Below are positions 25,291 to 30,845 of a stretch of DNA of 35,154 nt, in pieces (positions within the stretch are counted from its first letter, which is position 1; each line of letters starts with the position of its first letter). The notes under the pieces are model-generated. The model saw nothing but the letters and a program-made list of their open reading frames with translations. It was not told where the DNA came from and searched no databases. Origin of the DNA: Elusimicrobiota bacterium (GTDB taxonomy: Bacteria; Elusimicrobiota; Elusimicrobia; FEN-1173); the NCBI GenBank assembly GCA_022703335.1, contig JAKLDV010000013.1:1-35154 (forward strand), in the 5' to 3' direction. A program made the position numbers and the translations under genes.

Positions 25291-26655
25291 TCAGCAGGGA
25301 GAGGAGGCCTGTCCCCGTCGGGTCCGCCGTTCGGAAAAAAAGTAAAGAGGGATCCCCAGCCCGGCGACGCCGACCCCGAGAAGGGATTCCTTCGGCCGGC
25401 CCAGAAAGGCGTTGATGGCAAAGGCGAGGCACATCAGGATGAACACCGTCGGCGTCCACGGATATCCCCACACCCGGTAGGCGGAGGGGCTTCGCTGGGC
25501 GGCGCGGCGCCGGAAGAGGAACAGGGAGAGTCCCGTGCCGGCGAAGAAGAGGTAGATGACGATTTCCGTGTAGGTGACGATCTGGTCCAGAGTGCCCGTC
25601 CACACCAGCAACGTCGCGAGGGCCGCCGTGGTCAGAAGGGACATCACGGGGGTGCGCGTTCTCGGCGAGACGAGGGCGAGCTTTCCGAAAAGGGCGTGGT
25701 CCCGCGCCAAGGCGAAGAGGATGCGGCTACCCGTCAGGATGTAGCCGTTGAGCGCGCCCAGGGTGGAGGCCATCACCATGGCGGCCACCACCTGACCGCC
25801 CCGCCCGACCCATATTTTGTCCATGGCCCCGGCCGCCACCAGGTCCGTCTCTCGGAGTTCGGGCAGGGGGAGGTAATAAAGGTAGACCGCGTTCACCACC
25901 AGGTACAGCACCGTGGTCCCCAGCAATCCGAAGACCAGGGCTTTCGGCAGGTTCCGTTCGGGTTCGCGGACCTCTTCCGCCACGTACGCGGCGTTTTCCC
26001 AGCCGCCGTACGTCCACAACGCGAAAATCATGGCCAGGCCGGTGGCGTGCCAGATGTTCCAGGACCACTCCGGCCAGAAAGGCTGGAAGTTCTCCGCCGA
26101 CCCTTTCCCGGCGAAAAGTCCGACGGCGATGATCCCCAGGAGCGCCAGCACCTTGAGCGCGGTCAGAACGTTCTGGACGGTTTTGCCCGCCCGGAGTCCG
26201 ACGATGTTGGTGGCGGTGAGCAGAACGATGCCGCCGGTGGCGAGCGATTTGACGGCGCCCGGGCCGCCGGCGAGTTCGGTCGCGCGGCAGGTATGTTCCG
26301 CAAAAACGAACGCGAGGATGGAGATCGTGCCCACGCGCTGCACGAAGAGTTTCGTCCAGCCGAAGACGAAGCCCCAAAGGCGCCCGTAGGCGTTGGTGAG
26401 GAAAACGTAGTCCCCGCCCGTCTTGGGGAACAGCGACGCCAGCTCCGCGTAGGTCAGCGCGCCGCAGAGGGAGAGCAGCCCGGCGAGCCCCCAGGCCAGC
26501 AGGAACATGAAGCCGGAGGAGGAATGCCCCGCCACGGAATCGGAGAGGCGGAATATCCCGGCGCCGATGATGCATCCCACCACGATGGCGCCGGCGTCCC
26601 AGACGTTCAGCCCCCGGCGCAGGGCGGGTTGGGTTTCGTTGTTCATGGCGCCCAT
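25291..26655 (-). CDS. APC family amino-acid permease
   Basis: A 454-residue membrane transporter with twelve predicted helices. The first-helix motif VVGCIIGAGIFRL (about 26-38) and the TGGDYVFLTNAYG segment (about 79-91) are hallmarks of the APC (amino acid-polyamine-organocation) superfamily, LAT-like branch. LWTYGGWENAAYVAEEV (helix 6 region) is the usual substrate-site element. It moves an amino acid by exchange or proton coupling; the substrate cannot be read. ATG 26653-26655 is used here; ATG nine bases in (MNNETQ) is equally possible, and neither has a good ribosome binding site. It is divergent from fur across 120 bases. Confidence 0.9.
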   Translation of the reverse strand: MGAMNNETQPALRRGLNVWDAGAIVVGCIIGAGIFRLSDSVAGHSSSGFMFLLAWGLAGLLSLCGALTYAELASLFPKTGGDYVFLTNAYGRLWGFVFGWTKLFVQRVGTISILAFVFAEHTCRATELAGGPGAVKSLATGGIVLLTATNIVGLRAGKTVQNVLTALKVLALLGIIAVGLFAGKGSAENFQPFWPEWSWNIWHATGLAMIFALWTYGGWENAAYVAEEVREPERNLPKALVFGLLGTTVLYLVVNAVYLYYLPLPELRETDLVAAGAMDKIWVGRGGQVVAAMVMASTLGALNGYILTGSRILFALARDHALFGKLALVSPRTRTPVMSLLTTAALATLLVWTGTLDQIVTYTEIVIYLFFAGTGLSLFLFRRRAAQRSPSAYRVWGYPWTPTVFILMCLAFAINAFLGRPKESLLGVGVAGLGIPLYFFSERRTRRGQASSPC

Positions 26656-26722
26656 AGACTACCAAAGTCCCCCGGGACCTGGCCAGCCGCCCGGTCCCGC
26701 GGGGCGCGGCGCGGCCGGGGGG

Positions 26723-26752
26723 TTGACAACGCCGTCTTCGATATGAGAAAAT
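26723..26752 (+). promoter_or_regulatory. fur promoter
   Basis: A perfect TTGACA (26723-26728), 18 bases, GAAAAT (26747-26752; four of six). The predicted first transcribed base is near 26759, 17 bases before the ATG at 26776. The palindrome at 26755-26777 would then cover the start point. Confidence 0.55.
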
Positions 26753-26754
26753 AG

Positions 26755-26777
26755 ATTTTGAGACGCCATATCAAAAT
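26755..26777. promoter_or_regulatory. Operator-like palindrome at the fur start (candidate Fur box 1)
   Basis: ATTTTGA, nine bases, TCAAAAT is a perfect 7-9-7 inverted repeat. Treated as 11-1-11 around 26766, nine of eleven pairs match. It contains the half-site TTGAGA beginning eight bases left of centre, the same as the second palindrome at 27244-27262. It overlaps the predicted transcription start and the fur ATG, as expected for autorepression. Confidence 0.5.
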
Positions 26778-27228
26778 GAACGATCACCTCAAGGCCTTCC
26801 GGAACTATCTGAAAGAACAGGGGCTCAAAAACACCTCTCAGCGGGAGGAGATACTCGCTTTCCTGGGAAGATCTTCACGGCACCTCTCGCCGGAAGAGAT
26901 CTTCCGGGAACTCCGGCGACGGGACCCCCGCCTCGGCCGCGCCACGGTGTTCCGCACCCTGCGCCTTTTGGGCGACTGCGGCCTGGCCACGCGGGTGACG
27001 TTCCCCGACGGTAAGCAGAAGTTCGAGACGCGTCTCGGCGGTCATCACCACGACCACATGCTCTGCGTGCATTGCGGCCGGGCCATCGAGTTCGTCAGCC
27101 CGGCGGTGGAAGAGGCCCAGAAACGGTTGGCCCGGCGGTACGGGTTCAAGGTCCTGTGGCACCGCCATGAGATTTTCGGCCGCTGCCGCCGCTGCGAGAC
27201 GGCGGGGCCGTCTCCCCGGCGTTCCTGA
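26776..27228 (+). CDS. fur: Fur family metal-responsive repressor
   Basis: A 150-residue regulator with an N-terminal winged helix (about 5-85; recognition helix RATVFRTLRLL at 55-65) and a C-terminal dimerisation domain. The metal sites are visible: HHHDH (90-94), E105 and H131 for the regulatory metal, and the structural zinc pairs C97/C100 (CVHC) and C137/C140 (CRRC). This pattern fits Fur/PerR/Zur; the HHHDHMLC-x2-CG-x-x-IEF stretch is most Fur-like, and the iron genes that follow support iron sensing. ATG 26776 is preferred over an in-frame TTG at 26758 because it gives the usual N-terminal helix length. Candidate operators lie at its own start and after its stop. Confidence 0.85.
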   Translation: MNDHLKAFRNYLKEQGLKNTSQREEILAFLGRSSRHLSPEEIFRELRRRDPRLGRATVFRTLRLLGDCGLATRVTFPDGKQKFETRLGGHHHDHMLCVHCGRAIEFVSPAVEEAQKRLARRYGFKVLWHRHEIFGRCRRCETAGPSPRRS

Positions 27229-27243
27229 TTTTTTTGTGTTTTT

Positions 27244-27262
27244 ATTGAGATAAAGTCTCAAT
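27244..27262. promoter_or_regulatory. Operator-like palindrome before the iron genes (candidate Fur box 2)
   Basis: ATTGAGA, five bases, TCTCAAT: a 19-base site, the length of a classical Fur box, with seven of nine pairs matching around 27253. The half-site TTGAGA again begins eight bases left of centre, as in the fur-start palindrome. It sits 41 bases upstream of the barrel-protein gene. I see no convincing separate -35/-10 next to it. Confidence 0.55.
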
Positions 27263-27265
27263 TAA

Positions 27266-27283
27266 GACCGGCGCCCGCCGGTC
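27266..27283 (+). other. GC hairpin in the leader of the barrel-protein gene
   Basis: GACCGGC, four bases, GCCGGTC is a perfect 7-bp stem (or 8 bp with a 2-base loop) starting three bases after candidate Fur box 2 and 19 bases before the ATG. No T-run follows, so it is not a terminator. It would form near the 5' end of the iron-operon mRNA and may stabilise it. Confidence 0.45.
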
Positions 27284-27302
27284 GCATGTCCAGGAGGGAT
27301 CG

Positions 27303-28121
27303 ATGGGAGCACGACGGAAGAGAGCGGCGTTGTTTTTGGCGGCGACGGCTTTTGCGGCTTCGGCCGGGGCGGAGGCCCCCGCAAAAATTCAGGACAATTC
27401 GTTCCTTCTGGAGGAGGCCTATAACCAGGAACCGGGCGTCGTTCAGCACATCCAGGCTTTCCAGTATCTGACGAAGGACAAGACCTGGACCGCTTCGTTC
27501 ACCGAGGAGTGGCCGTGGAAGGGGCAAAAGAACCAACTTTCCGTCACGTTGCCCGTCGAGCATTTTCCCGCGCCGGGCAACGACACCGGCTTGGGAGACG
27601 TGGGACTGAACTACCGTTACCAGGCCCTCTTGGACGACCGCGTGGCGGCTTCCCCGCGGGTCACTCTCCTTCTGCCGACCGGCGACGAGGAGGATGGTTT
27701 CGGCGCCGGCGCGTTGGGATACCAGGTCAACATGCCGTTCAGCGTGGACCTCTCGGACCGATGGGTGACGCACTGGAATTTCGGCGCCACCTACACCCCC
27801 GACAGCCGCGCCGCCGGCAGCGTCCGGGCCGATACGCTGGGTTTCAACGCCGGGTTCAGCGTGATCCACGTCCTCTCCGATCGGCTCAACCTGATGATGG
27901 AGACCGCCGCCACGTCGGAGGAAACGCCGTTGCCGGCCGGCGGGACGGAGCGGAACGACACGTTCTTTTTGAACCCCGGTGTGCGGGGGGCGCTGAACTT
28001 CGAGTCGGGGCTGCAGGTCGTCCCCGGCCTGGCGTTTCCCATCGGCGTCGGCCCGTCCGACGGCGAACACGGCGTGTTCCTGTATCTTTCGTTCGAACAT
28101 CCGCTGCGTTCGGGGGGTTGA
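27303..28121 (+). CDS. Outer-membrane beta-barrel protein, transporter-like
   Basis: A 272-residue protein with a signal peptide (1-23, ending SAGAEA) and then regularly spaced amphipathic strands (such as WTASFTEEWPW, QLSVTLPVEHF, LGDVGLNYRYQAL, PRVTLLLPTGD). This suggests a barrel of about 10-12 strands ending in the aromatic-containing strand LYLSFEHPL. The DVGLNYRYQ and RVTLLLPTGD elements recall the PF13557 group of putative outer-membrane channel proteins (phenol-degradation meta-pathway family), whose role is poorly defined. An AGGAGGG site precedes the ATG. It lies between candidate Fur box 2 and feoB, so a role as an iron-responsive outer-membrane channel is plausible but inferred. 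Confidence 0.7.
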   Translation: MGARRKRAALFLAATAFAASAGAEAPAKIQDNSFLLEEAYNQEPGVVQHIQAFQYLTKDKTWTASFTEEWPWKGQKNQLSVTLPVEHFPAPGNDTGLGDVGLNYRYQALLDDRVAASPRVTLLLPTGDEEDGFGAGALGYQVNMPFSVDLSDRWVTHWNFGATYTPDSRAAGSVRADTLGFNAGFSVIHVLSDRLNLMMETAATSEETPLPAGGTERNDTFFLNPGVRGALNFESGLQVVPGLAFPIGVGPSDGEHGVFLYLSFEHPLRSGG

Positions 28122-28161: not shown

Positions 28162-30150
28162 ATGGAAAAGGCGGCGGCGGTTCTGGACGATAAAAAAGTC
28201 GTGGCCATGAAACGGCTGGCCCTGGTGGGCAATCCCAACGTGGGCAAGTCGGTGGTGTTCAACCGCCTCACGGGACAGTACGTGACGGTGTCCAACTACC
28301 CGGGCACGACGGTGGACGTCTCCCGGGGAGGCGGCCGGCTGGGCGGGGAAAACTATGAGATCGTGGACACCCCCGGCGTGAACTCCCTCATCCCCAACTC
28401 CGAGGACGAACGGGTCACGCGAGACCTGCTCCTGCGCGAGAACCCGGACGTGCTGGTCCAGGTGGCCGACGCCAAGAACCTGCACCGCGCACTCCTGCTG
28501 ACGCTGGAACTGGCGGAGTTCCGCCGGCCGATGCTGCTCGTGTTGAATATGATGGACGAGGCCATGTCCCGCGGGCTGGTGATCGACCCCGCCCGGCTTT
28601 CCCGGCGGTTGGGGATCCCCGTGCTCCGGACCGTGGCGACGTTGGGGGAGGGTCTCGCGGACGTGAAGGCGGCGGTGGCGCGGGCGGCGGTGCCGTCGGC
28701 CGCCGTGCCGTATCCGCCGGAAATCCACCGGTCGCTGGAGGCGTTGGACGGGGCTTGGCGGACGGATTTTTCTCCCAAGAGGGCGGTGAGCTTGGCGCTT
28801 TTGTCCGGCGACGGTTCGGCGCTGACGTGGGCTCATCCGGGTCTGCGGCCCGGCGAAACCGAGGAGTCCCTGTGGCGTCGGGCCGACGCACAGAGGGCGG
28901 CTTTTGTCCGGCCGCCCCGGCTGGTGGTCTTCGAGGCGCGCGACGGATGGGTCAAAGAGACGCTGGGGGAGGCGGTGTACCGCCGCGCCGGCCCGTCCGG
29001 GAATTGGGCGTCGCGGTTCGGAAACTGGTGCATGCGGCCCTGGCCCGGGTACCTGATCGCCCTGGCGGCGTTGTACGCCGTCTACCAGTTTGTCGGCGTC
29101 TTCGGCGCGGGGGTGGCGGTGGATTTTTTGGAGGGAACCGTTTTCGGACGGTACATCGTTCCGGCGGCGCAGCGTTTGGCCGATCTGCTTCTGCCGTCGA
29201 CCTTTTTGCGCGACATGGTGGTGGGCCCCTACGGGATCGTCACCATGGCGCTCACCTACGCGTTCGCCTTGATCTTCCCCATCGTGACGACGTTTTTCCT
29301 CGCCTTCGGGATCTTGGAGGATTCGGGGTATTTGCCGCGGCTGTCGGTGATGATGGACCGGTTGTTCCGGCTGATGGGGCTCAACGGCCGCGCGGTGCTG
29401 CCGATGGTGCTGGGGCTGGGCTGCGACAGCATGGCGACGGTCACCACGCGCGTGCTCGACACCGCCAAGGAGCGGCTGATCGTGACGGTGCTCCTGTCCC
29501 TTTCCGTGCCCTGCTCGGCACAGTTGGCGGTGATCTTGGGGATGACCGCCGGCATGTCGCCGCGGGTCTTCCTGTTGTGGCTGGGCGTGGTGGCGGGCAT
29601 CACCTTCGTGGTCGGTTGGGGGTCGGCGCGTTTCCTGCCGGGCGCCCGGTCCACCTTCGTCATGGAGATCCCGCCGTTGCGCCGGCCCATGCTGCGGAAC
29701 CTCCTTCTGAAAATAAAGGCCCGGCTGGAATGGTATTTGAAGGAGGTGGTGCCGCTGTTCGTGCTGGGCACGCTGGTGTTGTTCTTCCTGGACAAGTTCG
29801 GCGGACTGAAACGGCTGGAAGTCCTGGGCGCGCCGGTGGTTCAGAAATTCCTGGGCTTGCCCGCCGCGGCCACGCAGACGTTCCTCATCGGGTTCCTGCG
29901 GCGCGACTACGGCGCCGCCGGACTTTACCATCTGCAGATGGAGGGGCTGATGAACGACCGCCAGGTGACGGTCAGTCTGGTGTTGATCACCCTCTTCATG
30001 CCGTGCATCGCTCAATGGTTGATGGTGGTGAAGGAACGGGGATGGAAGATGGCGGCGGTCGTCACCGCGGTGGTCACGGTGATTGCCCTGGCGGCGGCCG
30101 GCGGACTGAACGCCCTCCTCTCCGTCGCGCCCCGGCTCATTTCATCCTAA
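28162..30150 (+). CDS. feoB: Ferrous iron transporter FeoB
   Basis: A 662-residue Fe(II) transporter with a cytoplasmic G domain and a membrane domain. G1 is GNPNVGKS (23-30), G2 lies around YPGTT (46-50), G3 is DTPG (69-72) and G4 is NMMD (129-132). A helical linker follows, then about eight membrane segments from residue 290. The inner-membrane motifs are GCDSMATVTTR and PCSAQL, the variant of the GCxVP/CSAR gate motifs seen in a delta-proteobacterial/Aquificae-type FeoB subgroup. Downstream, the FeoA domain comes fused to a DtxR-like regulator, so there is no separate feoA. The start ATG 28162 has a GAGGA site; ATG 28207 is an alternative. It follows the barrel gene by 40 bases and precedes the regulator by 14. 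Confidence 0.92.
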   Translation: MEKAAAVLDDKKVVAMKRLALVGNPNVGKSVVFNRLTGQYVTVSNYPGTTVDVSRGGGRLGGENYEIVDTPGVNSLIPNSEDERVTRDLLLRENPDVLVQVADAKNLHRALLLTLELAEFRRPMLLVLNMMDEAMSRGLVIDPARLSRRLGIPVLRTVATLGEGLADVKAAVARAAVPSAAVPYPPEIHRSLEALDGAWRTDFSPKRAVSLALLSGDGSALTWAHPGLRPGETEESLWRRADAQRAAFVRPPRLVVFEARDGWVKETLGEAVYRRAGPSGNWASRFGNWCMRPWPGYLIALAALYAVYQFVGVFGAGVAVDFLEGTVFGRYIVPAAQRLADLLLPSTFLRDMVVGPYGIVTMALTYAFALIFPIVTTFFLAFGILEDSGYLPRLSVMMDRLFRLMGLNGRAVLPMVLGLGCDSMATVTTRVLDTAKERLIVTVLLSLSVPCSAQLAVILGMTAGMSPRVFLLWLGVVAGITFVVGWGSARFLPGARSTFVMEIPPLRRPMLRNLLLKIKARLEWYLKEVVPLFVLGTLVLFFLDKFGGLKRLEVLGAPVVQKFLGLPAAATQTFLIGFLRRDYGAAGLYHLQMEGLMNDRQVTVSLVLITLFMPCIAQWLMVVKERGWKMAAVVTAVVTVIALAAAGGLNALLSVAPRLISS

Positions 30151-30164
30151 GAAAGGTGTGACAA

Positions 30165-30845
30165 ATGACGGAAGACAAGAAATTCCCCATCCCCACCGCC
30201 GAGAAGGAGGACATCGAAGAGGGGCTGAACGTGGTGTGGAACATGTTCGAGAAGAAAGTGCGCCGGCGGGCGGAGATCCAGGCCCGCCTGACCGAGGCCG
30301 TCGGGGAAAAGGCCCTCGATCTGCTGATGCGCGAGGGGCTTCTGCGGGAATCCGGCGACGAACTGGTTTTTTCGCCGGAGGGGGAACGCCTCGCCAAGGA
30401 CATCATCCGCCGGCATCGCCTGGCGGAACGGCTCCTGTCGGACGTGCTGAGCATGGCCCGGGCCGAACTCGATTCCAACGCCTGCCGGCTGGAACACATC
30501 ATCTCGCCGGAGATCAGCGAGTCCATCTGCACCCTCCTGGGCCATCCCCGGCAGTGCCCGCACGGCTCTCCCATCCCGTCCGGCGATTGCTGCCGTCGGG
30601 AGGAGGAAAACATACGCCCCATCGTGGTCTCCCTCGACAACATGAAACTGGGCGAGGAGGGCCGCATCGCCTACCTCCTTCTGCACGACCATCCGGAACT
30701 GCACAAACTCCTGTCTTTGGGAGTGATCCCCGGCGCCGAGGTTCGCCTGCATCAGACGTTCCCCAGCTTCGTGCTGGAGCTGGGAGACAGCCAGCTCGCC
30801 CTCGAAGAGGCCGTGGCCAGGAACATCTACGTCCGAAAAAAATAG
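30165..30845 (+). CDS. DtxR-family metal regulator fused to a FeoA (SH3) domain
   Basis: A 226-residue protein. Residues 15-75 look like a winged helix but are degenerate compared with DtxR. Residues 80-130 are the DtxR metal-binding and dimerisation domain (RRHRLAERLLSDVL, then CRLEHIISPEISESI and GHPRQCPHGSPIP). Residues 152-226 are a FeoA/SH3 domain (GVIPGAEVRLHQTFP). C107, E110, H111 and H127 are likely metal ligands; C131, C142 and C143 add a Cys cluster. This fusion is common next to FeoB of the subtype found here. It may act as an iron-dependent repressor, as FeoB's FeoA partner, or both. An AGAAAGG site precedes the ATG. Two iron regulators thus bracket one operon. Confidence 0.82.
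   Translation: MTEDKKFPIPTAEKEDIEEGLNVVWNMFEKKVRRRAEIQARLTEAVGEKALDLLMREGLLRESGDELVFSPEGERLAKDIIRRHRLAERLLSDVLSMARAELDSNACRLEHIISPEISESICTLLGHPRQCPHGSPIPSGDCCRREEENIRPIVVSLDNMKLGEEGRIAYLLLHDHPELHKLLSLGVIPGAEVRLHQTFPSFVLELGDSQLALEEAVARNIYVRKK

Follow-up and report, generated by a model that had tools for sequence, protein, structure and literature searches.

Organization of the fur and feo locus

The DNA analysed here, which we call the window, is a stretch of 35,154 nucleotides (positions 1-35,154, forward strand) of contig JAKLDV010000013.1 in assembly GCA_022703335.1, from an Elusimicrobiota bacterium (Elusimicrobia; FEN-1173). The genome containing it (G000, contig C35) is a 2.66-Mb draft, and the named relatives are Elusimicrobia MAGs. 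The features of the locus are as follows.

26723..26752, + strand: predicted fur promoter (-35 TTGACA at 26723-26728, 18-bp spacer, -10 GAAAAT at 26747-26752)
26755..26777, unstranded: operator 1, the predicted fur autoregulatory box, ATTTTGAGACGCCATATCAAAAT, with core TTGAGACGCCATATCAA at 26758-26774
26776..27228, + strand: fur-A, encoding a Fur-family regulator of 150 aa (PF01475) that retains the S1, S2 and S3 metal ligands
27244..27262, unstranded: operator 2, the predicted feo-operon box, ATTGAGATAAAGTCTCAAT, with core TTGAGATAAAGTCTCAA at 27245-27261
27303..28121, + strand: gene for a putative outer-membrane beta-barrel protein of 272 aa with a signal-peptide-like N-terminus, the first gene past operator 2
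28162..30150, + strand: feoB, ferrous iron transporter (TIGR00437, 375 bits, above the cut-off)
30165..30845, + strand: gene for a DtxR-like protein (PF02742, Fe_dep_repr_C, and PF04023, FeoA/SH3 domain)

A DtxR-like gene of this last type comes after feoB in many genomes. The barrel protein had no match in Pfam, and its predicted structure consists of about 12 long strands at low confidence (pLDDT 50); homologues 57-61% identical to it occur in distant families (in G028 and, adjacent to fur and feoB, in G020).

An earlier note on this DNA had described two palindromes bracketing fur, and its coordinates hold: the TTGAGA half-sites start at 26758 and 27245, the two palindromes are centred on 26766 and 27253, and their right arms, TATCAA at 26769-26774 and TCTCAA at 27256-27261, agree with the note in full, with TTGAGA-N5-TATCAA (26758-26774) before fur and TTGAGA-N5-TCTCAA (27245-27261) after it. 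The first palindrome can be extended to ATTTTGA-N9-TCAAAAT (26755-26777). Operator 1 lies 5 bp past the predicted -10 hexamer and its right end runs into the fur ATG (26776), positions that agree with the proposal that it covers the predicted transcription start and the ATG; operator 2 comes after the fur stop, and the 41 bases separating it from the barrel ATG (27303) were likewise given correctly. Both operators contain the 15-bp inverted repeat TGA-N9-TCA (TGAGACGCCATATCA and TGAGATAAAGTCTCA), their half-sites being TGAGACG, TGATATG, TGAGATA and TGAGACT, and the classical half-site TGATAAT is absent from both.

The fur promoter is the sole promoter-like site predicted in 26600-27320, and promoter prediction over this interval detected no clear promoter at operator 2. 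A perfect GC hairpin (GAGACGGCGGGGCCGTCTC, 27196-27214) stands at the end of fur with a T run about 16 bases further on, and the two together may form a weak terminator. Their position ahead of operator 2, and the reach of operator 1 to the ATG, would fit a reading in which the inverted repeats act in RNA, as a terminator behind fur and a translation control at its start. We consider this extremely unlikely, given that the same core, which at one site keeps its spacing from the -10, also occurs past the fur stop, that half-site sequence is kept beyond what mere pairing requires, and that prediction returned no terminator-like site in 26600-27320.

Occurrence of the motif in the window and genome

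The window holds 24 perfect 6-5-6 palindromes, mostly GC-rich, so symmetry alone is little proof, and this abundance speaks for a chance origin of the two sites. To be set against it are the results of pattern searches of the genome, in which up to one mismatch was allowed and the reversed pattern served as control. The degenerate box TTGAKAYNNNRTMTCAA, derived mainly from upstream regions of relatives and drawn when the window sites were already known, had two matches in the 2.66-Mb genome, namely operators 1 and 2, and none in the reversed control; it had no match in 2.1 Mb of Markov-2 sequence, and composition predicts about 0.018 exact (rounded, 0.02) and 0.8 one-mismatch matches in the genome. 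Together with conservation across genera, families and phyla, these counts refute chance for the motif as a whole and leave it a negligible probability. The motif is unusual by its sequence and conservation, not by its palindromy. Matches to the degenerate box are concentrated at iron genes, the pattern for which the earlier note had proposed a genome scan, and the regulon apparent in this genome is local, comprising two promoters only.

The literal pattern TTGAGA-N5-TCTCAA has one further exact match in the genome (C90:23748-23764; L002:1501-1517). It lies upstream of a histidine-phosphatase-like gene, with a thioredoxin-reductase-like gene next in line (both named on visual inspection), and its surroundings contained no recognisable iron gene. 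We rejected it as a Fur box, with G and C at positions 7 and 11 where the conserved box has Y and R. At the level of two mismatches there were 26 matches, compared to 7 in the reversed control. Seven other one- or two-mismatch matches were inspected and rejected; none adjoins a recognised iron gene, and five of them (L127-L131) lie inside large ORFs. Matches to TTGAGAYNNNRTCTCAA in relatives were also set aside as probable chance occurrences, those in G019, G031 and G012 and one in G008 (C18) overlapping predicted ORFs, and those in G009 and G059 having no recognised iron gene adjoining. Two perfect TTGAGA palindromes abut directly at one locus (L138, G059:C59:20646-20679), where the vicinity showed no recognisable iron gene; in this family the box is absent from most Fur genes.

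Conservation of the box and gene order in relatives

Fur relatives were drawn from 60 genomes together with named GTDB genomes. In close relatives, whose Fur proteins are 45-61% identical, the box recurs at the fur promoter, which reads TTGACA-N17/18-TATAAT with the box just downstream. The distance from TATAAT is 5 bp in most members of families f1 and f5, with other distances in a few, and the window-like spacing of 5 bp is found in G001, G004, G024, G029, G042 and G045. Counterparts of operator 1 occupy the same place at L004, L005/L137, L007, L008, L009, L011, L012 and L014, and counterparts of operator 2 lie from a few to about 26 bp past fur at L010, L012, L014, L047 and L135, and about 490 bp past it at L248. 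Many relatives carry two copies of the box offset by 6 bp (TTGATATTGAGATTCAATCTCAA in G001). Omnitrophota share the box as GATAATGAGACTCGATCTCAA, a form that still shows the outer GATAAT hexamer of the classical box. Conservation in relatives, the second check that had been proposed, therefore extends to about 45% Fur identity and into another phylum. In other Elusimicrobiota families (f9 mostly, and f14), the majority of Fur genes have neither this box, with its GAGA or GATA half-sites, nor the GAAA form described below.

A composite of promoter and box (TTGACA-N20-34-TTGAKAYNNNRTMTCAA) was searched for across 341 genomes of the phylum. It matched in 13 of them, with no match in the reversed control, and fur lies directly downstream in 11 of the 13; the matches in G041 and G264 had no fur behind them. 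Seven of these 11 genomes had contributed to TTGAKAYNNNRTMTCAA, and the remaining four (G324, G329, G331 and G335), which lie outside the class, had not. All four have fur behind the composite; in three of them the gene after fur is feoB, and the remaining one carries a second box at a distance of 491 bp.

A second box past fur, before a barrel, FMN, PepSY, ApbE, feoB or similar cluster, is present in G008, G017, G024, G039, L047 and G335. In family f5 no more than about 5 bp separate it from the fur stop, and the barrel gene comes next; on long contigs this gene is followed by FMN-binding, PepSY and ApbE genes, feoB and the DtxR-like gene; in f1 (G001 and G004) fur runs directly into feoB with no second box. 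The window thus shows one of two ways of arranging the same genes. In G008 the interval between fur-A and feoB (L210:3448-7202) encodes barrel-like, FMN-binding and PepSY_TM proteins and ApbE. The f5 set of barrel, FMN-binding, PepSY_TM and ApbE genes could represent a flavin-based iron-reduction module tied to FeoB.

The Fur protein as probable reader of the boxes

The fur-A product scores 115.9 bits against PF01475 (cut-off 23.1) and thus has the FUR domain; its best PDB matches are the Fur proteins of C. jejuni and H. pylori, and its structural model has Foldseek matches to the Fur structures 2xig and 4rb1. With ligand positions mapped through an alignment to 4raz, S2 ligands H36, E84, H92, H94 and E105 and S3 ligands H91, D93, E112 and H129 are invariant across 21 aligned sequences, as are C97 and C100 of the Cys4 site S1, in which C137 and C140 are nearly so. 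We take S2 and S3 to bind metal and the Cys4 site to hold structural zinc, as in Fur. The curated NCBIfam Fur equivalogs, which model Helicobacter- and Bacillus-type Fur and are not required for the wider family, were not reached (105 bits, cut-offs 200 and 220), so the functional name rests on residues and context.

Two other kinds of protein were considered as readers. A PerR- or Zur-type regulator, with the boxes serving peroxide or zinc control, might be proposed because the 7-1-7 plan is common to Fur, PerR and Zur boxes and NCBIfam models of PerR and Zur also match fur-A weakly. The best matches, however, are the Fur models and the two Fur proteins named above, Glu rather than Asp stands at the PerR-typical positions (E84 and E105, which we assume to favour Fur over PerR), and the genes downstream are feoB here and, behind the paralogue described below, FTR1 or ApbE/FMN genes; we therefore regard this explanation as highly unlikely. 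It is very unlikely, too, that the boxes are read by the DtxR/FeoA-like regulator at the end of the operon. Its gene shares the operon with feoB, and the DtxR family, too, has palindromic sites at iron genes, but no DtxR N-terminal HTH is recognisable in the protein by Pfam search and the boxes have the 7-1-7 TGA-N9-TCA register characteristic of the Fur family. Moreover, three feoB-DtxR loci unlinked to fur-A (L218 in G009, L222 in G007 and L227 in G015) and a locus in G034 have no box, whereas fur-A genes have one, which makes the DtxR-like protein a poor candidate. Judged from sequence, the fur-A protein itself is the probable reader of both operators.

Comparison with known Fur sites

The Fur box of E. 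coli and B. subtilis, GATAATGATAATCATTATC, consists of two overlapping 7-1-7 repeats, TGATAATNATTATCA (Baichoo and Helmann 2002, reviewed in PMC11353095). The Elusimicrobiota box resembles it as a 15-bp TGA-N9-TCA inverted repeat at the fur promoter and feo genes, often in two copies offset by 6 bp in relatives, and its register is identical to that of the 7-1-7 site and its overlaps described in PMC11353095. It differs in its half-site, TGA(G/T)A(Y) rather than TGATAAT, and the window sites are single where the classical repeats overlap. The earlier note had called the box different from the classical GATAAT repeat; this stands for the half-sites, but the register is kept and the outer GATA hexamer persists in relatives. 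Given this register, the 6-bp overlaps and the GATAAT hexamer in Omnitrophota, the box is by its sequence a dialect of the 7-1-7 Fur box rather than an unrelated kind of signal.

A lineage-specific Fur box, WTGAAAATNATTTTCAW, has been described in delta-proteobacteria; it is missed by E. coli profiles, governs a small regulon (fur, feoAB and porins) and shows 6-bp-shifted overlaps in Desulfovibrio (Rodionov et al. 2004, PMC545781). The window box is likewise lineage-specific, with a small regulon at fur and feo, and Geobacter in the same study offers a near parallel to the bracketed fur arrangement. The likeness in letters, however, is between the delta-proteobacterial box and the GAAA dialect beside a second Elusimicrobiota paralogue; the GAGA dialect of the window does not share it. 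The fold, the metal ligands and, presumably, the use of one dimer per 7-1-7 site are shared with Magnetospirillum gryphiswaldense Fur (4RB3 on the feoAB1 operator, 4RB1 on the E. coli Fur box), which differs in having Tyr56 where Phe59 occupies the equivalent position in all 21 aligned sequences here. Tyr56 is, we presume, a base-contacting residue. In the literature searched, we found no paper joining Elusimicrobia and a Fur box, and what was found on TTGAGA was primers and noise only.

Two dialects and two Fur paralogues

Relatives encode a second Fur paralogue whose gene is flanked on either side by TTGAAAY-N3-RTTTCAA; where the sequence behind it was read, FTR1 or ApbE follows. Box-bracketed copies were seen at L160 (G008), L164 (G001), L154 (G011), L156 (G023) and L015 (G007); an FTR1 iron permease gene lies behind the paralogue in G015, and genes for ApbE, a large exported protein and an FMN-binding-like protein in G007. 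Among 118 Fur loci, a GAGA/GATA box was found within about 260 bp in 17 and a GAAA box in 16, with none in reversed windows. In the five genomes in which both paralogues were examined (G001, G002, G004, G008 and G017), each gene has its own dialect, 5 of 5, and its box is at least two mismatches from the other. The term Fur box of the lineage, used in the earlier note, is thus apt in that the box is conserved and linked to iron genes, and too narrow in that there are two dialects, each beside its own paralogue.

On the protein tree, which is poorly resolved, four changes suffice for the two dialect labels among 33 rows. Both forms occur within one clade of Omnitrophota, which suggests that changing dialect is easy and has probably occurred repeatedly, and the likeness of the GAAA form to the delta-proteobacterial box suggests that it is probably the more widespread dialect. 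A single-residue cause (Ala56 versus Val/Ile56) was rejected, L041 and L158 combining Ala56 with a GAAA box, and Phe59 is common to both dialects and so cannot alone explain the split. We give about even chances to the idea that cells with two paralogues run two insulated iron circuits, one in which fur-A acts on its own gene and on feo by way of GAGA/GATA boxes, the other in which fur-B acts by way of GAAA boxes on its own gene and on those of the FTR1/ApbE type. Two or three bases of the half-site would make the difference, and the lineage in question also has a Tyr-to-Phe change at a base-contacting position of the recognition helix.

Discussion

We consider it very likely that operators 1 and 2 are sites of the Fur protein encoded between them, serving autorepression and repression of the feo operon. 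This reading is based on sequence, position, conservation, restriction to fur and feo loci and the Fur metal ligands. Weighing against it are the NCBIfam Fur scores below cut-off, the lack of either box at the majority of Fur genes in other families of the phylum, and the failure of promoter prediction to detect a clear promoter at operator 2. The earlier proposals of fur autorepression and iron-operon control are both supported, with the position of the box fitting the former and its presence at fur and feo loci here and in relatives the latter. Metal-loaded Fur dimers, with Fe2+ as the most likely metal, would bind the 7-1-7 inverted repeat TGAGAyN-N-NrT(C/A)TCA. At 26758-26774 a dimer would cover the transcription start, predicted at about 26759, behind the -10 and block fur; at 27245-27261 it would presumably repress rather than activate the barrel gene, feoB and the DtxR-like gene, which are predicted to form one transcription unit. 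Scarcity of iron would then release ferrous iron import.

These results provide a usable definition of Fur sites for Elusimicrobiota and, in part, for Omnitrophota. They also make the putative outer-membrane barrel gene a candidate partner of FeoB, comparable to the porins for which a similar role has been proposed in Geobacter. Lastly, the pairs of paralogues residing in the same cells offer a natural set for studying how Fur proteins acquire different half-sites.
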